DNA of 64,000 bases, from assembly GCF_903645325.1 (NCBI RefSeq), contig NZ_CAHJXQ010000001.1, forward strand, positions 1 through 64,000, read 5' to 3'. The notes under the pieces were generated by a model. It saw only the letters and a list, made by a program, of their open reading frames with translations. It did not search any database and was not told the DNA's origin. This document shows, one piece after another, positions 24,174 to 47,920 of the stretch. Position numbers and translations under genes: made by a program. Position 1 is the stretch's first letter, and each line of letters starts with the position of its first letter. The DNA is from Microbacterium tenebrionis (lineage in GTDB: Bacteria > Actinomycetota > Actinomycetes > Actinomycetales > Microbacteriaceae).

Positions 24174-24760
24174 CAATGCTCCTTCGTCGCATTGCTCCGC
24201 GCCGCCGTAACCTTCATCGCTTTCTTGTGCTCGCGGACCTTGGTGAGCGACTCGGGCGAGACGATGTCGGCGACGCTGCGGAACGAGCCCTCCGTGCCGT
24301 AGTCGCCCGCCGCCTCGCGCCACCCCGCACCGGTGAATCCGTACTGCTTCCCGAGCAGCGCCAGGAAAATCTTCGCCTTCTGCTCGCCGAAGCCGGGCAG
24401 CTTCTTCAGGCGCCGCAGCACCTCCGGCCCGTCCGGGTCGCCCTGGGTCCACAGCGCCGCGGCATCCCCACCCCAGTCGTCGACGAGGGTCTGGCAGAGC
24501 GTCTGCACCCTGGTCGCCATGGACCCGGGGAAGCGGTGCACCGCCGGGGTCTGCTTGAACGCCTGGAGGAACTCCTCGGGGTCCATGCCCGCGATCGCGG
24601 CCGCATCGGTCGCGCCGGTGCGCTGCTCGATCTTCAGCGGCCCGGCGAACGCCGTCTCCATCGGCACCTGCTGGTCGAGGAGCATCCCGACCAGGAGCGC
24701 GAGCGGGTTGTCCGTGAGCAGTTCGTCGGCTGCCGTGTCGCCGGTGATGTGCAGAGCCAT
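24173..24760 (-). CDS. HhH-GPD-type base-excision DNA repair protein
   Basis: The product has 195 residues and opens with ALLVGMLLDQQVPMETAFAGP (about residues 21-41), the helix that packs against DNA in these glycosylase-like proteins. A helix-hairpin-helix follows as LKKLPGFGEQKAKIFLALL (about 117-135), with the GxG hairpin and downstream Lys. There is no iron-sulphur cluster motif. It resembles an actinobacterial HhH-GPD family of unproven substrate. CAGACT lies six bases before the ATG (minus strand). The DUF1801 remnant overlaps its stop. Confidence 0.85.
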   Translation of the reverse strand: MALHITGDTAADELLTDNPLALLVGMLLDQQVPMETAFAGPLKIEQRTGATDAAAIAGMDPEEFLQAFKQTPAVHRFPGSMATRVQTLCQTLVDDWGGDAAALWTQGDPDGPEVLRRLKKLPGFGEQKAKIFLALLGKQYGFTGAGWREAAGDYGTEGSFRSVADIVSPESLTKVREHKKAMKVTAARSNATKEH

Positions 24761-24829
24761 GCCCCCAGTCTGGCACCGTGTGGCAACCCCCCGGAGCGCG
24801 GGTCCGTCCCCTGTCCTAAGGTAAGGAGC

Positions 24830-25477
24830 ATGGGGGGTAGGTTCAGCGTCGCCATCGTCGACGACCACGCGCTCATCGGGCTGGCGATCGGCCCGCTCAT
24901 CGAGCACTCGGACGATCTGGTGTTCCTGGGCGCCGTGCGGTCGGTCACCGCCCTCCGACAGGGCGAACTGCATCCCGACCTCGTGGTGCTCGACCTCATG
25001 CTCCGCGACGGGACCACACCGGCCGACAACGTGCAGGTGCTGCGCGACCGCGGCGCGCAGGTGCTCGTCCTGACGTCGGGGGAGGACTGCTATCTCGTCC
25101 GAGAGGCGCTGCGCACAGATGCCCTCGGCGTGGTGCGCAAGTCCGCCCCGCCGGCCGCGATCCTCGCGGCGATCCAGCGCGCCGCTCGAGGCGAGCTCGT
25201 CGTCGACGCGGAATGGGCCGTGACCGTGGATGCCGACCCCGACCTGGAGAGCGCACCCCTCACGGATCGCGAGCGAGACGTGCTCGCGCTGTACGCCTCG
25301 GGCATCGGCGCCAAGCAGGTTGCCACGCAGCTGGGCATCAGTGAGAACACGGTCAACGACCACCTCAAGCGCATCAAGCTCGCGTACCAGCGTCTCGGGC
25401 GCCCCGCTCCGACCAAGGTCGAGCTGTATCGCCGTGGCGTGGAAGACGGCTTCCTGCCCGTGCCAGGACGGCGATGA
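24830..25477 (+). CDS. NarL/LuxR-family response regulator
   Basis: The product has 215 residues. The receiver domain occupies about residues 5-120, with acidic pair VDDH near the start, phospho-acceptor Asp in VVLDLML (about 52) and Lys in VVRKSAPP (about 103). A LuxR-type HTH follows (about 145-205) as LTDRERDVLALYASGIGAKQVATQLGISENTVNDHLKRI. The stop overlaps the start of the sensor kinase gene by four bases (ATGA), so the two form a two-component pair. TAAGGT sits seven bases before the ATG. Confidence 0.92.
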   Translation: MGGRFSVAIVDDHALIGLAIGPLIEHSDDLVFLGAVRSVTALRQGELHPDLVVLDLMLRDGTTPADNVQVLRDRGAQVLVLTSGEDCYLVREALRTDALGVVRKSAPPAAILAAIQRAARGELVVDAEWAVTVDADPDLESAPLTDRERDVLALYASGIGAKQVATQLGISENTVNDHLKRIKLAYQRLGRPAPTKVELYRRGVEDGFLPVPGRR

Positions 25478-27657
25478 ATGGCCGGGCCGAGGCCGGTCGG
25501 CGACGCCCTGTGCGCGAGCGTTCGGCCCACCGACATGAACTGCTGACCTCGCGGTTGCTCACCGCCGGCAACGGCGCCGTCTCTGCGGTCGCGGCCCTCG
25601 GGTTCGCGACCGTCGTCGTGCAGCCGGACGCGCTCGCCCTGCCTCTCCCGTTCCAGGGGGCGATCCTCAGTCTCTACGGCGCGGCCATCGTCGTGGCGCT
25701 CGTTGCCCTGGCGTGCTCGCGGCGCGCCATCCGCATGCTCAACGGCGCCGTGGCCATCGGCTACCTGCTGCTGGTCGCGTCGACGTGGCCCGTCGTCGCG
25801 CTCACCCGATCGGAGTCCAGCGGTCAGCTCTCCTGGGTGCTCACCGTCAACGCGATCGCCGTGCTCGCGGCCGTCATCGCCTGGGGGCAGGTGGCGGGCT
25901 GGATCGTGCTCGGCGTGCTCGCCGTCTTCGTCCCCCTGCTGAGGTTCGCCCTGGCGGATACGACGGCGAACGCGATCACGAACGATCTGCAGGCGCTGGG
26001 GGCGGCAATGCTGCTGTGCGCGCTGGCCGGGGCGGCGCTCGGCCGAGCCCGGCGGGCGGATGCCGCGGCAGCGGCCGTCCGCGAGGCCGACGTGCGCGAC
26101 GCCGAGAGCTCGGCGCGTCGAGACGTCGAAGCCCGCGCCCAGGCGCTGGTGCACGACGAGGTGCTCGCCACGCTGGCTTTCGCGGCGCGGGCCAGTACCG
26201 AGATGCTGCCGGTGCTGGCCGCTCAGGCGCACCGCGCCCGTGCGGCGCTCGCCGCGCTCGCGACTCCGCAGACCGGGACGGTCGCGGTCTCGGCGTTCCG
26301 GTCCGAGCTGCAGGATCTCGCGCGCGCGCACGGGGCGGAGTTCGTCGAGGAGGGCGCCGAGGAGCAGTCCGTGGAGGTTCCCGCCGACGTGGCGGCCGCC
26401 ATGACGGGGGCGGCAGAGCAGGCGCTCATCAACGCTCGGGTGCACGCTCCCGACAGCGAGAGCAGTCTGACGCTGAGACACGACGGCCACGGCCTCCGCG
26501 TCGCCGTGAGCGACGACGGGCCCGGGTTCGACAAGCGCGGCGTCACCCCTGGGCGGCTCGGGATCGCCGTCAGCATCCTCGCTCGCCTCCGATCGGTCGG
26601 CGGCCTGGCTGAGGTGCACACCGAGCCCGGCCGTGGCGTCGTCGTCGACACCTCCTGGCAGCCGGGAGTGCCAGCCGCTGCCATCCAGCCGCCGCCGGTC
26701 GGGCTGCTCCCGGATCGCGACATGCGCCTCGCCGGTGGTCTGTTCGCGGCCGGCCACCTTCTCCTTGCGGCGTGCTCGTTCGTATGGCTGCGCAATCCAC
26801 TGCCCGGGCTTCTCGCCGGCCTCGCCCTCGCCGCGGCCTTCGTGGTCGTCTCCTGGCGCGCCGATCGCGCCCGCGCCGGCGTCGTCGTCTGCGCCGCAGC
26901 GCTCGCGGTCGCCGCCGTGTGCACGATGTTCGCCGGTGTGGCCGTTCCCGACACGGCCGGCATGCCGACCTTCGCCGGAATGTGGCCGCTGGTGGGCGCA
27001 TCCTTCGTTCTCGGGATGCTGTGCCTGCGCAGTCGTCCACGCACAGCGCTCGTCCTTCTCGTGACAGTCGTCGCCCTGGCCGTGATGGCCGTCGTCCCCG
27101 GACCGTACACCGAGATGCGCGCCGCCGTCATGCGCGCGGTGGTCGTGGTCGTCGCGACGACCGCGCTCGCCGTCTCGATCCGCACCCTGGACCGGCACGT
27201 TGAACGGGACAGGGCCCTCACGCGGGCGGCGAGCACGGAACGCGCGTGGCTCGCCGAGGGCACGGCCCTCGCCAGGGAGAAGACCGCGAGCTGGGATGCG
27301 ACGATCGGCCCGCTCCTGGACCGCATCGGCGAGGGGACCGCACTCACCGACGCTGAGGTCGCCCAGTGCCTCGTCCACGAGGGCGCGCTGCGCGACGGAT
27401 ACCGCGCCGGTCGCCTCGACGTCCCCGTCGTCGCGGCCGCCGCCGCGCGGGCGCGGTCGCGCGGCGTCGACGTCGTCCTCATCGATGATGTCGCCGACCG
27501 CGACATCGACGATGACGTGCTCGAGCGGCTGCGCGCCTGGCTGGTCGGAGAACTCGACCGGGCGGACGGCAGTTTCATCGCACGCATCCTTCCGGACGGG
27601 CGGTCCGCCCTCGCGACGGCATCGTCCGACACCGCATCCACCCGTTTTGGTGGCTGA
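25474..27657 (+). CDS. Sensor histidine kinase with duplicated membrane/kinase-like halves
   Basis: The product has 727 residues, nearly twice a simple NarX/DesK-type kinase. The order is: about five or six membrane helices (about residues 25-195); a DHp-like helix with LVHDEVLATL (His about 227); an ATPase domain with EQALINARVH (N box), VSDDGPGFD (about 344-352) and RLGIAVSIL; a second block of about six helices (415-560); then a cytoplasmic helix plus an alpha/beta domain (570-727) that resembles a kinase core without N, G1 or G2 boxes. The last part includes CLVHEGALRDGYRAGRLD and a VDVVLIDDVADRDIDDD strand. The pair with the LuxR regulator is translationally coupled. The signal is unknown. 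Confidence 0.85.
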   Translation: MNGRAEAGRRRPVRERSAHRHELLTSRLLTAGNGAVSAVAALGFATVVVQPDALALPLPFQGAILSLYGAAIVVALVALACSRRAIRMLNGAVAIGYLLLVASTWPVVALTRSESSGQLSWVLTVNAIAVLAAVIAWGQVAGWIVLGVLAVFVPLLRFALADTTANAITNDLQALGAAMLLCALAGAALGRARRADAAAAAVREADVRDAESSARRDVEARAQALVHDEVLATLAFAARASTEMLPVLAAQAHRARAALAALATPQTGTVAVSAFRSELQDLARAHGAEFVEEGAEEQSVEVPADVAAAMTGAAEQALINARVHAPDSESSLTLRHDGHGLRVAVSDDGPGFDKRGVTPGRLGIAVSILARLRSVGGLAEVHTEPGRGVVVDTSWQPGVPAAAIQPPPVGLLPDRDMRLAGGLFAAGHLLLAACSFVWLRNPLPGLLAGLALAAAFVVVSWRADRARAGVVVCAAALAVAAVCTMFAGVAVPDTAGMPTFAGMWPLVGASFVLGMLCLRSRPRTALVLLVTVVALAVMAVVPGPYTEMRAAVMRAVVVVVATTALAVSIRTLDRHVERDRALTRAASTERAWLAEGTALAREKTASWDATIGPLLDRIGEGTALTDAEVAQCLVHEGALRDGYRAGRLDVPVVAAAAARARSRGVDVVLIDDVADRDIDDDVLERLRAWLVGELDRADGSFIARILPDGRSALATASSDTASTRFGG

Positions 27658-27782
27658 AAGACCTAGTGCCGCCTGGTCAAAGGTCTATATCGTCGAAGTA
27701 TCGATGACGGGCCGCGTTGATCTCCTGGTGAGATACCCGCGACGAGGGCCGGCATCGGAATGCTGGGGACGAGGCAGAGCCG

Positions 27783-27989
27783 GTGACCGAGCAGCAGAGG
27801 GAACCGGATCAGCCGTCAACGACCGAAACGAAGCTGCGGTCGATGGGGGTGGCGCTCTGGCATGGCGTGAGTGCGGGCATCTTGGGAATGCTCGTGCTCA
27901 CCGCCGTGCTGGCGCCGGGCATCGGCGCTGATCAGGCCGTCGCGGCGTGTACGTCGTTCGCGTCGTCGGCGGCAGGAGTGATCCCGTAG
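27783..27989 (+). CDS. Possible small membrane protein, 68 aa
   Basis: The frame starts at GTG 27783, eight bases after GAGG, and reads a polar N-terminus (EQQREPDQPSTTETKLRS) followed by one hydrophobic helix (GVSAGILGMLVLTAVLAPGIG, about residues 28-48). Its last 58 bases overlap the 3' end of hemA on the other strand. The 125 bp upstream contain TATA-like words (CTATATCG, GTATCGAT) but no clear promoter. No family was recognised. Confidence 0.4.
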   Translation: MTEQQREPDQPSTTETKLRSMGVALWHGVSAGILGMLVLTAVLAPGIGADQAVAACTSFASSAAGVIP

Positions 27990-29260
27990 ATCGTCTCGAG
28001 CGCTGCGACGAACTCCGCCCCTCGGCCTTCCGCTGCGAGCTCGTGCGCCCGCGTCGTCGGCGTGTGGGTGAGGACACCTGCGAGATGACGCATCGCCTGC
28101 TCGACCCGGCCGTCCTCGTCGCCGCGGGCACGGGCGCGCTCGATCTCGGCCTCCATGAGGGCGAAGATGTGCGAGCGGAAGGCGACGACGGCCGGCGTGA
28201 CACTCTGACGGTCGCCGAGAACGTTGAAGGTGTCCGCCGCGTCGCGCACGATCGTGCGAGCGGCATCCGTCGCCTGGAGCTCCTCGAGCGGCGCGTGCAG
28301 GCGGATCGTCTCGAGATCGAGCAGCGCGACGCCCTCGAGCTGCGCGACGGCGGGGTCGACGTTGCGCGGCATCCCCAGGTCGATGACCAGCTGCGAGCGG
28401 GCGTGCGTGCTCGGGGCGTGCACAGGGCATCCGATGGCGACCGGAGCGGACGGCGCCTGCAGGTGCTCCGGACCGAGGACGGGTTCCTCGGCCGCGTTCG
28501 TGCAGGTGATCAGCAGGGTCGAGCGCGACGCCACGCGGGCGTAGTCGGCGTCTGCGACAGCCGTGATCCCGTGCTTGTCCGCGAACAGCTCCGCGCGGCC
28601 CGAGGGCGAATGCACCGAGATGTCGACGGCCCCGCGCTCGCGGAGCGTGGCGAGGGTGACGGCGGCATACGCGCCGGTGCCGACCAGCAGCACGCGCTCC
28701 GCCGACCAATCGGCGATGCGGCTGTCGGCCAGCTCGAGCGACAGACGCACGAGCGAGCGGCCGGCACGGCCGAGCGCCGTGACGTTCTTGACCTTGCGCT
28801 GCGCCTGGCTCGCCCGCTGGAACAGCCTCTCGAGTTCGGGAGAGGTCGTGCCGTCCTCGCGCGCGGCCGTGAGAGCGCGGCGCACCTGACCGGCGATCTC
28901 GCCCTCGCCGGGGACGACGGACTCGAGGCCGGATGCCACCGCGAACAGGTGCTCGGCGACACGTCGCCCCGAGTGCACCTCGTAGGCGCCGTCGAGCTCT
29001 GCGGTGGGGATGCCGGTGGACTGCTCGATCGCCTCGAGCACGGCCTCGACGCCCACGGCGCCGGCGGCTGTGACGGGTTCGTCGACCTCGACGTACGCCT
29101 CGAAGCGGTTGCATGTGGAGAGCACGACGGCCCCCTGCACGCACGATGTCAGGCGCAGAAGATTCGGCGCGACGTCGTCAGGGGTGCGGCTCAATCGTTC
29201 GAGCATGTCGAAGGAGGCGGTCTTGTGACTCGCCGTCAGACACAGCAGCACGAAATCCAT
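27932..29260 (-). CDS. hemA: Glutamyl-tRNA reductase
   Basis: The product has 442 residues. The catalytic Cys is in VVLSTCNRFEAYVE (about residue 51), followed by the Glu-tRNA binding region and the NADPH domain with RVLLVGTGAYAAVTLATL. The enzyme reduces glutamyl-tRNA to glutamate-1-semialdehyde, the first step of C5 haem synthesis. It is divergent from hemE, with 79 bp between the starts, and partners hemL at the other end of the cluster, which takes the next step. The ATG at 29260 is the only good start; no Shine-Dalgarno is obvious. Confidence 0.95.
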   Translation of the reverse strand: MDFVLLCLTASHKTASFDMLERLSRTPDDVAPNLLRLTSCVQGAVVLSTCNRFEAYVEVDEPVTAAGAVGVEAVLEAIEQSTGIPTAELDGAYEVHSGRRVAEHLFAVASGLESVVPGEGEIAGQVRRALTAAREDGTTSPELERLFQRASQAQRKVKNVTALGRAGRSLVRLSLELADSRIADWSAERVLLVGTGAYAAVTLATLRERGAVDISVHSPSGRAELFADKHGITAVADADYARVASRSTLLITCTNAAEEPVLGPEHLQAPSAPVAIGCPVHAPSTHARSQLVIDLGMPRNVDPAVAQLEGVALLDLETIRLHAPLEELQATDAARTIVRDAADTFNVLGDRQSVTPAVVAFRSHIFALMEAEIERARARGDEDGRVEQAMRHLAGVLTHTPTTRAHELAAEGRGAEFVAALETIYGITPAADDANDVHAATA

Positions 29261-29339
29261 TCTAAGCCCGCTCCGCTGGACGCCCGCCCGCGCCGCCGCT
29301 GACAGGCGGTTCATGTGCGCCGGATGGGAGGATGGACCC

Positions 29340-30359
29340 ATGCCTTCCCCTCACGCCCCGTTGCTGCGCGCGCTCGCCGGAGACCGACCCGAGCAGACCC
29401 CCGTCTGGTTCATGCGTCAAGCCGGACGCTCGCTCCCGGAGTACCGAGAACTCCGCGTCGGAACCCGGATGCTCGACGCCTGCCTCACCCCGGATCTCGC
29501 GGCCGAGATCACGCTGCAGCCGGTGCGCCGGCACAAGGTGGATGCCGCGGTGTTCTTCAGCGACATCGTCATCCCGCTGCGGCTGGCGGGCGTCGACGTC
29601 GTGATCGAGCCAGGCCGAGGCCCCGTGTTCGCCGAGCCGGTCCGCACTGCCGCCGACGTCGACCGCATCACGGCGATCGATCCGAACGATCTGGACACCA
29701 CGGCGATCACCGATGCCGTGCGGATCGTCACCGCAGAACTGGGCGACACCCCGCTCATCGGCTTCGCCGGTGCGCCGTTCACGCTCGCCGCCTACCTCGT
29801 CGAGGGCGGGCCGTCGAAGGAGCATCTTCGTGCTCGCGCCATGATGCACACCGATCCGGATGCCTGGGACCGGCTCGCCGGCTGGCTCTCCCGCGTCTCC
29901 CGCCGATTCCTCGAGGCGCAGCGCGACGCCGGGGCCGCGACCGTGCAGCTGTTCGACTCCTGGGCCGGGTCCCTGAGCCCCGCGGACTACCGCGCCCATG
30001 TCGCCCCGCACTCGAAGGCCGCGGTCGAGGGCCTCGGACTCCCTGTGATCCACTTCGGCGTCGGCACCGGACCGTTCCTCCGCGACATGCGCCTGGACGG
30101 AGCGGCATCCGCCGTCGGCGTCGACTGGCGGCAGCCGCTCGACGAGGCCGCCGGCATCCTCGGCCAGGGCGTCACCGTCCAGGGCAACATCGACCCCGCG
30201 ATGCTGCAGGCCCCGTGGCCGATCCTGGAGGCGCACGTGCGCGACGTCCTCGAACGCGGACGCGCTGCCCGCGCCCACATCCTCAATCTCGGTCACGGCG
30301 TGCCGCCGGAGACCGACCCCGATCAGCTCACGCGCATCGTCGAGCTCGCGCACTCATGA
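29340..30359 (+). CDS. hemE: Uroporphyrinogen decarboxylase
   Basis: The product has 339 residues. The N-terminal signature PVWFMRQAGRSLPEYRELR (about residues 21-39) carries the substrate-binding Arg residues. The barrel end reads NLGHGVPPETDPDQLTRIVELAH. It converts uroporphyrinogen III to coproporphyrinogen III in the cytosol. GGGAGGA lies seven bases before the ATG at 29340. Its TGA overlaps the start of cgoX (ATGA, 30356-30359), so these are coupled. Confidence 0.96.
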   Translation: MPSPHAPLLRALAGDRPEQTPVWFMRQAGRSLPEYRELRVGTRMLDACLTPDLAAEITLQPVRRHKVDAAVFFSDIVIPLRLAGVDVVIEPGRGPVFAEPVRTAADVDRITAIDPNDLDTTAITDAVRIVTAELGDTPLIGFAGAPFTLAAYLVEGGPSKEHLRARAMMHTDPDAWDRLAGWLSRVSRRFLEAQRDAGAATVQLFDSWAGSLSPADYRAHVAPHSKAAVEGLGLPVIHFGVGTGPFLRDMRLDGAASAVGVDWRQPLDEAAGILGQGVTVQGNIDPAMLQAPWPILEAHVRDVLERGRAARAHILNLGHGVPPETDPDQLTRIVELAHS

Positions 30360-31888
30360 CCGCCGACACCACGGCTGACCTCGCCGCGCGCGCCGCGCAC
30401 CGTCACGTCGTCGTCATCGGGGGCGGTATCGGTGGACTCGTCGCTGCGCGCGAATGCGCCAAGGTCGGCATGCGGGTCACCCTGCTCGAGGCAGACGATG
30501 AGCTCGGCGGCGCGATCCGCCGGGCGGACCTCGACGGCGTGGCCGTGGATGCCGGCGCCGAGTCATACGCGACCAGGGGAGGTCATGTCAGGACGATGCT
30601 CGCCGAGCTCGGCCTCGACGACCGGATCGTCACACCGAACCCGGAGGGCGCCTGGCTCGTCGGAGCGCCCGGCGTCGACGCGGCGCCGCTTCCGAAGGGC
30701 GGCATCCTCGGCATCCCGGCGAACCCGTTCGCGGAGGACGTGCGACGCATCATCGGCTGGGGCGGCGCGTGGCGCGCGTACGTCGACCGCCTGCGTCCGC
30801 CGCTCACCATCGGCCAGGAGCACAGCCTCGGTGCCCTCGTCGCGAAGCGCATGGGAAGCAAGGTCCGCGACCTGCTCGTCGCGCCCGTCACCGCCGGCAT
30901 CTACTCGGCGGACCCCGACGACGTCGACACCGAGGTCGCGGCCCCGGGGTTGAACGAGGCCCTCACGAGGGCCGGATCGCTGTCCGGCGGCGTCGCGCAG
31001 CTGCTCACCGACCGCGCCGACCGTGCCAGAAAGGCTCCGGGTTCTGCGGTCGAGGGGATCGCCGGCGGCATGAGTCTTCTCATCGATGCGCTCGCCGCCG
31101 ATCTCGGTGGGCTGGGCGCCGTCATCCGGACGAACGCTGCCGTGGAGACGATCGAACGCACCGATGCCGGGTGGGCGGTCGGTCTCGCGCTCGCCACCCC
31201 GCAGGACGATCTCTCAGCGGACGCCGGGCTGCTCGCAGCGGATGCGGATGAGCAGGGCGAGACGATCGCGGCCGACGGCGTCATCGTCGCCACAGAGGAG
31301 CCCACGGCACGCGCGCTGCTCACCGCGCACGTCGCCGGCCTGGGAGCGGCCGGTCAGGCGCCGCAGATCGAGATCGTGAGCCTGCTGCTCGAAGCGTCCG
31401 CACTCGATGCCTCGCCTCGTGGAACAGGCGTGCTCACCGTGCCGGGCAGCCATGTCGCCAAGGCGCTGACGCACGCGAGCGCGAAGTGGGACTGGCTGCG
31501 CGAGTCGGCGGGCAGTCGCCACGTGGTGCGCGTCTCATTCGGCGCCCAGGGCGAACCGGCCGCCACCGGCGCGCTCGACGACGACGCTGCGGCGCGGCTG
31601 GCGTTGAGCGAAGCATCCGCCCTGCTCGGGGTCGCCCTGCCGGAGTCCGCGCTCGTCGCCGCGCACCGTGCTCGCTTCACGCAGTCGCAGCCGGCGTCGC
31701 TCATCGGGGCGTCGAATCGCCGCCGTGAGATCCGCGCCGCAGTGGCGAAGTCCGCGGGTCTCGGCGCGGTCGGTGCCTGGCTCTCCGGCACGGGCCTGGC
31801 GCAGGTCGTTCCCGACGCGACCGCCGAGGCCGACCGTGTTCGCCGCGCGCTTCTCTGGGGTTCAGATGGCCGGCTGTCAACCCCCTGA
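30356..31888 (+). CDS. cgoX: Coproporphyrinogen III oxidase (HemY/HemG-type flavoprotein)
   Basis: The product has 510 residues. The FAD dinucleotide motif VVVIGGGIGGLVAA is at about residues 20-33, and GGAIRRADLDGVAVDAGAESY follows, as in the protoporphyrinogen oxidase superfamily. Because a ChdC (HemQ) gene is 1.3 kb downstream, this is read as the actinobacterial enzyme that oxidises coproporphyrinogen III to coproporphyrin III. The start overlaps hemE. It is somewhat longer than average because of an acidic loop (TPQDDLSADAGLL, about 281-293). Confidence 0.93.
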   Translation: MTADTTADLAARAAHRHVVVIGGGIGGLVAARECAKVGMRVTLLEADDELGGAIRRADLDGVAVDAGAESYATRGGHVRTMLAELGLDDRIVTPNPEGAWLVGAPGVDAAPLPKGGILGIPANPFAEDVRRIIGWGGAWRAYVDRLRPPLTIGQEHSLGALVAKRMGSKVRDLLVAPVTAGIYSADPDDVDTEVAAPGLNEALTRAGSLSGGVAQLLTDRADRARKAPGSAVEGIAGGMSLLIDALAADLGGLGAVIRTNAAVETIERTDAGWAVGLALATPQDDLSADAGLLAADADEQGETIAADGVIVATEEPTARALLTAHVAGLGAAGQAPQIEIVSLLLEASALDASPRGTGVLTVPGSHVAKALTHASAKWDWLRESAGSRHVVRVSFGAQGEPAATGALDDDAAARLALSEASALLGVALPESALVAAHRARFTQSQPASLIGASNRRREIRAAVAKSAGLGAVGAWLSGTGLAQVVPDATAEADRVRRALLWGSDGRLSTP

Positions 31889-47168: not shown

Positions 47169-47273
47169 TATGATCGAGGGCACAACCACGGGAGTCCGGG
47201 CGATGCCGGGCTGAGAGGGAGCGAGAAGCGCTTCGACCGTCGAACCTGATCCGGATCATGCCGGCGCAGGGAG
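47169..47273 (+). promoter_or_regulatory. TPP riboswitch (THI element) with its -10 box
   Basis: The aptamer spans about 47187-47273. The two diagnostic cores are CTGAGA (47211-47216) and ACCTGATCCGGATCATGCC (47244-47262), the latter followed by GGCGCAGGGAG; they bind the pyrimidine and pyrophosphate of thiamine pyrophosphate. A -10 box TATGAT is at 47169-47174. The 3' end of the aptamer runs into the Shine-Dalgarno (GGGAGGAG) of the ykoE-like gene, so ligand binding should block translation. Confidence 0.93.
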
Positions 47274-47281
47274 GAGCTCAG

Positions 47282-47920
47282 ATGAGTACGTCTACACGCA
47301 CGCCCGCGATCGCCGAGACGGTCGCACCGAGTCGCTGGCGCTGGCGCGTCGTCGACATCGTCGTCGCCGCCGTCCTCGGCGTCGCGATCGGCCTCGTCTT
47401 CTGGGGCTGGAACACCATCGGCTACGCATGGTTCAGCGCCGCCGACGCGCTGCCCCCCGGCTTCGGCGGCATCGCGGTGGGCATCTGGCTGCTCGGCGGC
47501 GTCGTCGGCGGCCTCGTGATCCGCAAGCCGGGCGCCGCCCTCGTCGTCGAACTCGTCGCGGCCATCGTCTCGATGCTGATCGGCAACGTCTGGGGAGTAT
47601 CGACGATCCTCTCCGGCATCGTGCAGGGTCTCGGGGCCGAGCTCATCTTCGCGCTGTTCCTGTACCGCCGCTTCGGCATCGTCGTCGCCGGTCTCGCCGG
47701 TGCGGGCGCCGGCATCGCCGCGTGGATCTTCGAGCTGTTCTACGGCAGCTCCCCGAACATCCTGAAGTCCCTCGAGTTCAACACGATCTACCTCGTGTGC
47801 CTGATCGTGTCGGGCATCGTGCTCGCCGGTGTCGTGGGCTGGCTGCTGGTGCGCGCCCTCGCCGCCACAGGGGCGCTCAGCCGCTTCGCGGCAGGGCGAG
47901 AGCGCATCCGCGAGGTCTGA
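47282..47920 (+). CDS. ykoE: ECF transporter substrate-binding (S) subunit, YkoE-like, thiamine/HMP
   Basis: The product has 212 residues with about six membrane helices. The segments IGYAWFSAADALPPGFGGIAVG and WGVSTILSGIVQGLGAELIFALF match YkoE-type S components. The TPP riboswitch just upstream indicates thiamine or its pyrimidine precursor (HMP) as the substrate. GGAGGAG lies five bases before ATG 47282. Two genes for the ATPase and the T subunit follow in the same operon. Confidence 0.9.
   Translation: MSTSTRTPAIAETVAPSRWRWRVVDIVVAAVLGVAIGLVFWGWNTIGYAWFSAADALPPGFGGIAVGIWLLGGVVGGLVIRKPGAALVVELVAAIVSMLIGNVWGVSTILSGIVQGLGAELIFALFLYRRFGIVVAGLAGAGAGIAAWIFELFYGSSPNILKSLEFNTIYLVCLIVSGIVLAGVVGWLLVRALAATGALSRFAAGRERIREV

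Follow-up and report, generated by a model that had tools for sequence, protein, structure and literature searches.

Histidine kinases are generally regarded as symmetric homodimers, and the role of each half in signaling is therefore hard to assign. Here, we describe a locus of Microbacterium tenebrionis in which a complete sensor kinase and a degenerate, kinase-like partner are encoded by one open reading frame (ORF). The locus lies in a 64,000-nucleotide stretch of DNA (assembly GCF_903645325.1, contig NZ_CAHJXQ010000001.1, positions 1 to 64,000 of the forward strand), hereafter called the window.

The nearest precedent that we found is FasBCA of group A Streptococcus, presented as two six-helix kinase-like membrane proteins together with a response regulator (PMC12675982). 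Two-hybrid assays of FasB and FasC gave a heterodimer and no homodimer signal, and the authors propose that one member is a pseudokinase (PMC12675982). That inactive kinases can steer active ones is shown by DivL, RetS, and a variant of ChrS. DivL with CckA in Caulobacter and RetS with GacS in Pseudomonas are cases in which a kinase-like protein complexes with, and controls, a working histidine kinase, and DivL is described as catalytically inactive (PMC12189002, PMC12675982). An inactive ChrS variant of Corynebacterium glutamicum forms heterodimers with HrrS, with raised output (PMC9491836). Outside the kinases, the membrane adenylyl cyclases AC5, AC8, and AC9 carry six helices and a cytoplasmic part twice per chain, the bacterial Cya is a homodimer, and transmembrane helices (TM) 6 and 12 extend as a coiled coil connecting the membrane with the paired cytoplasmic part (PMC9433096). 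The fused cyclase form is thought to come from duplication and fusion (PMC9552081).

The Microbacterium locus is best read as an actinobacterial three-part module whose last two parts are fused. The fused protein would be a single-chain pseudo-heterodimer with one phospho-histidine and one ATP site, in which the second half acts as an allosteric partner (probability about 0.68).

A complete kinase joined to a degenerate half

Positions 25474 to 27657 (+ strand) form a single ORF of 727 codons without an internal stop, encoding a fused kinase and pseudokinase of 727 amino acids. Its ATG, at 25474, overlaps the stop codon of a LuxR/NarL-type response regulator gene (24830..25477, + strand) by 4 nucleotides. 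The regulator has 215 amino acids and combines a receiver with a GerE DNA-binding domain (Pfam Response_reg, 4.7e-8; GerE, 8.2e-12). The anatomy of the chain can be read directly: six membrane helices, a complete DesK/VraS-like histidine kinase, six further helices, and a shortened kinase-like part. An initial annotation had described two membrane-plus-kinase halves, the second degenerate, coupled to a LuxR regulator, and both points hold in the sequence, the alignments, and the structural model.

The first half has the elements of a complete kinase, as the initial annotation had stated. Its membrane block (residues 20-159; 25531..25950, + strand) comprises helices 20-47, 58-80, 83-111, 116-137 (broken), and 139-159 in the full-length AlphaFold2 model, with the sixth helix formed by the start of helix 165-238. 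The signal helix and DHp hairpin follow (residues 165-263; 25966..26262, + strand), and then a complete HATPase (CA) domain with N, G1, and G2 boxes (residues 268-397; 26275..26664, + strand). The kinase residues are kept as His227-Asp228, Asn320, D347-x-G-x-G, and R361-x-G363. Conservation was scored in an alignment of 119 nonredundant rows, 26 near-copies having been dropped from 145. The phospho-acceptor His227 (26152..26154, + strand; in VHDEVLA) is histidine in 117 rows with two gaps, Asn320 is asparagine in 118 with one gap, and so are G349 and G351 as glycine. The His227-Asp228 pair provides the HD/HE-box phospho-histidine of DesK/VraS/LiaS-like (HisKA_3) kinases, and N320, G349, G351, and G363 supply the N, G1, and G2 boxes of a CA domain.

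HATPase_c is found in 49 of 50 relatives at E ≤ 0.001, while the window protein scores 23.1 bits, under the 26.4 cut-off; HisKA_3 is absent from the matches listed for it at E ≤ 10, a search in which HMMER filters discard most weak matches. Structural matches to the CA domain include VraS (4gt8; Z 15.0, 124 residues, 2.9 Å) and DesK (3ehj; Z 13.7). The best-scoring named profile is MacS (NF047322; 72.3 bits, E 4.2e-20), well short of the NCBIfam equivalog cut-off of 300, so the protein is related to MacS and is not MacS. This refines the earlier label "NarX/DesK-like," as the NarX profile scores lower, at 13 bits.

A linker (residues 398-413; 26665..26712, + strand) joins the two genes; it is here that the separate kinases of relatives end and the partner gene begins. 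The second membrane block (residues 414-566; 26713..27171, + strand) appears in models of both the C-terminal half and the full-length protein, with helices 414-438, 443-461, 468-489, 501-518, 522-539, and the start of 546-610. After it come a helical hairpin (546-619, 626-644) and a short alpha/beta part with the order helix-strand-helix-strand-strand-strand (651-725). Structure prediction of the C-terminal half, a check that the initial annotation had proposed for residues 400-727, returns six helices, a hairpin, and a short alpha/beta part.

The loss of catalytic residues is plain. In the second signal helix and pseudo-DHp hairpin (residues 546-644; 27109..27405, + strand), Asp608 aligns with His227 in a whole-half hhalign alignment. 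This column holds D in 44 of the 119 rows, L in 30, A in 13, and histidine in none. Some histidine lies within columns 600-616, eight columns either way, in 26 of 119 second halves, its position not fixed, and the divergent L146 has one a single column beyond the His227 equivalent. The shortened pseudo-CA part (residues 651-725; 27424..27648, + strand) has no ATP boxes and, in the models, ends where the ATP lid would start. D-x-G-x-G occurs in 12 of 119 second halves and, by inspection, away from the G1 place. HATPase profiles gave no match at E ≤ 10, whether with the second half of the window protein or with the six distant second halves of L145-L150, and HATPase is not among the 25 listed of the 39 families matched by 60 second halves at E ≤ 1. 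By eye, the end of the second half in L149 and L150 resembles the last strand of an active ATPase domain.

Kinship between the halves nevertheless extends over most of their length. Whole-half hhalign of first against second gives 96.7% (E 4e-10, 211 columns), spanning the membrane, the signal helix, and the region up to the start of the ATPase part. At the whole-half level, the alignment indicates that the second half is homologous to the first. As to a putative Bergerat-type CA fold, residues 651-725 and the first part of the active CA domain (272-347) have the element order helix-strand-helix-strand-strand in common in the model. The model of the C-terminal half also matches the AgrC kinase 6e52_B, weakly and under the VIA caution level (Z 7.0, 84 residues, 3.1 Å).

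What the second half has lost in catalytic residues is set against conserved motifs of its own: LRDxxR, RGVDVVLLDD, and R-x-LP-x-GR. The first lies in EGxLRDxxR (residues 636-644; 27379..27405, + strand), whose signature columns are R640 (119/119), D641 (115/119), and R644 (113/119). The hallmark motif of the partner, RGVDVVL[IL]DD (residues 663-672; 27460..27489, + strand), is conserved at R663 (111/119), G664 (119/119), V667 (118/119), and D671 (112/119). When four regions were compared with four close relatives (L032-L035; L059 and L060 duplicate L033 and L034), the second cytoplasmic part showed the highest identity in every case (67-76%; kinase part, 55-68%). Its ratio of nonsynonymous to synonymous substitution rates (dN/dS), 0.19-0.27, is the lowest of the four regions in three of these relatives. 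These values indicate that the second half is under purifying selection: enzymatically degenerate and not decaying.

Such motifs could point to an activity of the second half itself, such as binding a ligand or a nucleotide, or acting on the regulator. They are conserved although no kinase residue remains, and the region bearing them is the most conserved of the protein among close relatives. Yet when 60 second halves were scanned against Pfam and NCBIfam, no family could be named, the matches listed being weak and scattered, and conservation of this kind would equally suit an interface with the kinase or the regulator. We consider a separate activity improbable. Nothing convincing came from PHROGs with the full-length protein or from a profile-based search of PDB sequences. 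In the latter, adenylyl cyclase type 5 scored best (E 4.3e-4), over the membrane part; this match is given little weight because of a large composition bias.

Occurrence and gene order of the two parts

Co-occurrence and gene order were observed in two sets of loci that share some genomes. Across 58 whole genomes, a homologue of the second half is present in all 30 of the best loci: it is fused in three and is the next gene behind the kinase in 27, where the separate partner genes code for 333-372 amino acids. A scan of GTDB genomes with one pattern per half found both parts in 61 of 62 named loci (fused in 27 and called split in 34); since a pattern from each half was used, this count is partly selected for the partner, and the 58-genome search is the fairer. 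In the GTDB count, L079 is scored as fused though cut by a contig end and L110 as split though apparently frameshifted: on this contig of a Propionibacterium metagenome-assembled genome (MAG), the frame continues past the kinase and the cytoplasmic part of the partner lies in another frame. The exception among the 62 is L120 from Conexibacter, with a more distant kinase and then its regulator.

Searching with the partner as query gives the same association. Its profile matches 38 of 296 genomes of the class, at 47 places. All 30 of the places fetched from these 47 (the window included) have a kinase in the same or an adjoining ORF, 9 of them fused and 21 split. Within the genus, an uninterrupted fused ORF (E ≤ 1e-27) occurs at 29 places in 28 of 366 genomes, the window's own included. 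Given these genomes and the 61 of 62 named loci with both halves, the fused ORF is more than chance. The same architecture, for which the initial annotation had suggested a search, is thus found in the genus and beyond. Fused forms are known from Microbacterium, Nocardioides, Herbiconiux, Compostimonas, and Micropruina; split forms come from Nocardia, Rhodococcus, Gordonia, Tsukamurella, Williamsia, Hoyosella, Demequina, Leifsonia, and others. Distant fused kinase-partner proteins were also seen in large-genome actinobacteria (L145-L150), and one split pair lies on a Chloroflexota MAG contig (L105), where a binning error or a transfer is possible.

Where the genes are separate, 58 of 62 split pairs have one and the same frame offset between kinase and partner. 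Overlap lengths in split loci follow from a start-choice rule; independent of that rule are the annotations of plasmid records, three of five of which have a 4-nucleotide overlap between kinase and partner. A regulator match accompanies 28 of 28 fused loci and all 27 split loci of the first 30. Linked genes for a kinase, a pseudokinase, and a response regulator, the arrangement that marks a FasBCA-like three-component system, are therefore present. The genome of the window also holds an unfused kinase and partner of the same family (G000:C1:584971-587021). In a tree of 119 kinase halves, the window's fused form falls in a clade of 35 fused rows with a Shimodaira-Hasegawa-like approximate likelihood ratio test (SH-aLRT) value of 96, and eight further fused rows lie elsewhere on the tree. 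The fusion is genuine and common to the 35-row clade.

The initial annotation held that orthologues stopping near residue 410 would make the remainder a frame fusion. Such homologues do exist, and 27 of the first 30 relatives stop there; however, the next gene then encodes the second half. An origin of the second half as a duplicate in decay, or as an artifact of frame fusion, might be argued from these many homologues, which end near residue 400, and from the lost kinase residues. Against it stand the recurrence of the fused ORF in other genera and in 28 of 366 genomes of the genus, the purifying selection on the second half, and a separate gene that remains beside the kinase in all examined loci except L120. 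A sequence artifact or frame fusion is ruled out by the recurrence of the ORF, decay is rejected because of the conservation and the dN/dS values, and the explanation as a whole is very improbable. The second half is, on this comparative evidence, a conserved partner protein and not debris. Many relatives make both proteins from neighboring genes, and this gene order suggests a pair that functions as a single asymmetric unit.

Plasmids of Rhodococcus, Gordonia, and Pseudarthrobacter carry the module as three genes (L151-L155). The regulator is annotated in four of these five records, and in L154 the upstream gene is named "protein kinase." The kinase is called "ATP-binding protein" in the five plasmid records examined for it, and the partner is a "hypothetical protein" in all 12 public plasmid records.

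Packing of the halves and a proposed mechanism

How the halves pack together was addressed by computation. The full-length AlphaFold2 model has a predicted local distance difference test (pLDDT) score of 85.5 and a predicted template modeling (pTM) score of 0.74. It has two sets of six membrane helices in a single chain with paired cytoplasmic helices, as in membrane adenylyl cyclases. Membrane adenylyl cyclases fill ranks 1-11 of the VIA list, kinase CA domains come after them, and the best match is AC8 (8buz_A; Z 18.3, 391 residues, 5.8 Å, model residues 12-603). The modeled halves are thus packed like those of the two-times-six-helix cyclases, with membrane block against membrane block and signal helix against signal helix in a single chain. 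No cyclase family is among the matches of the window protein at E ≤ 10, and by this search the protein lacks class III cyclase domains.

Residue couplings provide a second line of evidence. The hhalign block places residue i of the first signal helix against residue i+381. Among 142 kinase-partner pairs (effective number of sequences, Neff, 78), averaged couplings between the helices peak at this offset, which ranks 2 of 75 windows, or 1 of 75 on a narrower region where none of 60 shuffled pairings reaches its value. Split-only rows (83, Neff 50) put it at rank 3. This pattern suggests that the two signal helices pair in register between the halves, and, with the modeled packing, pairing within the chain is likely. 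The initial annotation had offered three roles for the second half: sensing a second signal, serving as a built-in dimer partner, or regulating the active half. The pseudo-symmetric packing and the in-register peak make the dimer partner the best supported, and the other two roles would be compatible with it.

Several observations weigh against this interpretation. Cytoplasmic parts aligned alone, signal helix included, give an hhalign value of 37% (E 3.5e-4), the DHp and CA parts together give 10.6%, and CA alone gives 12.6%, the last two out of register, against column-permuted controls (ten per test) that scored at most 0.3% except for one at 4.3%. The attempt to derive 651-725 from an ATPase domain by sequence alone therefore failed, CA alone not being significant, and its ATPase ancestry rests on element order and the weak AgrC match because the alignments are out of register. 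The model of the C-terminal half by itself has no Foldseek match at E ≤ 0.001. Ordered by Foldseek E-value, ordinary kinases come first and AC8 is at rank 40; VIA merely re-ranks the Foldseek list. Fused-only rows (59, Neff 28) put offset 381 at rank 20, which is no support, and the coupling result as a whole is suggestive only, because the windows overlap and shuffling also removes phylogeny. In L034, the dN/dS of the second cytoplasmic part is not the lowest (0.22 versus 0.21). The fused rows outside the main clade imply at least five changes between fused and split forms by parsimony, but only one is required by the starred branches, and the tree includes several long branches and two rows consisting largely of gaps. 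Finally, a one-chain model cannot tell whether two fused chains pair via their active halves.

This last point bears on an alternative in which two active halves dimerize as in ordinary sensor kinases and the second half, docked outside this homodimer, serves as a LiaF-like accessory sensor or inhibitor. Sensor kinases are commonly homodimers (PMC12675982), a homodimer with a docked second half is compatible with the monomer model, and the fused-only coupling test lends pairing no support. However, most of the partner itself resembles a kinase, the two membrane blocks are paired in the model, and the couplings between halves favor parallel, in-register pairing. We regard outside docking as unlikely, although it is the stronger of the alternatives considered.

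Under the favored interpretation of pairing within one chain, the active and inactive halves would pair laterally, with contacts between the six-helix membrane blocks, between the parallel signal helices, and between the DHp-like hairpins. A signal at either membrane block would shift the paired signal helices, and a signal in or at the membrane is plausible because few residues face outside. The second membrane block may add a sensing surface or relay the same signal. The second cytoplasmic part would then hold or release the active half, so that the second half, as an allosteric partner, could set kinase or phosphatase output toward the LuxR regulator. As the partner has neither the histidine nor an ATP site, the active half would phosphorylate its own histidine; we infer this autophosphorylation in cis, as well as the direction of regulation and the nature of the signal. 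Fusion would fix the ratio and orientation of kinase and pseudokinase.

Neighboring genes and comparison with known systems

A scan of positions 24500-28000 for promoters and terminators found none. Directly downstream (27932-31888) are hemA (minus strand), hemE, and a hemY/hemG-type oxidase gene. In the window and in three of 61 named loci (L059, L060, and L061), the module adjoins these hem genes and is convergent with hemA. The arrangement is absent from the rest of the 61 and possibly reflects shared ancestry only, and the adjacency to heme genes is not used as evidence of function. Elsewhere in the window, a thiamine pyrophosphate (TPP) riboswitch lies at 47178-47289, at 54.7 bits just over the gathering score of 54.3.

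No description of the actinobacterial kinase-partner pair or of its fused form was found in open-license PMC papers, the scope of the search, with subscription papers outside it. A corynebacterial review (PMC3353115) contains no third gene of this kind in the parts covered. MSMEG_0244/0246 of Mycobacterium smegmatis was considered and set aside as PrrAB-like and unrelated to this module.

A kinase accompanied by an inactive twin, whether encoded separately or within one chain, would be a natural asymmetric version of the usual dimer, with one histidine, one ATP site, and two sensing blocks. Should the pairing prove correct, it would offer a ready system for studying phosphorylation in cis versus in trans, one-sided signaling, and the roles of bacterial pseudokinases, and it would give a function to an actinobacterial family now annotated as "hypothetical protein." We also put forward, tentatively and at a little under even odds, a broader proposal: that these loci represent a widespread, unannotated class of asymmetric actinobacterial three-component systems, whose kinase works only with a dedicated membrane pseudokinase. 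Several lineages would have fused the pair into a cyclase-like chain of two times six helices with a single site and forced cis phosphorylation.

Comparison with described systems places the module most closely beside FasBCA, which likewise combines two six-helix kinase-like membrane parts with one response regulator. FasB and FasC are AgrC-like, not DesK/VraS-like. The FasBCA proteins are separate, whereas the Microbacterium pair is fused. The catalytic parts are also divided differently: the proposed pseudokinase FasC has the phospho-histidine and FasB the working kinase domain, whereas in the Microbacterium protein both belong to the active half and none to the partner. DivL and RetS are unlinked, larger multidomain proteins, and neither is known as a fused or shortened kinase. 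The ChrS case resembles ours in involving actinobacterial membrane kinases; however, its inactive variant arose by a frameshift in laboratory evolution, unlike the conserved natural partner gene described here. TodS-type double kinases also have two kinase modules in one polypeptide, but are soluble, carry PAS domains, and have both modules active. Unlike the membrane adenylyl cyclases, the Microbacterium protein has no cyclase domain, and the likeness lies in the membrane and helical arrangement only. This likeness to the fused cyclases could nonetheless provide a bacterial comparison for the debated role of the cyclase membrane blocks.

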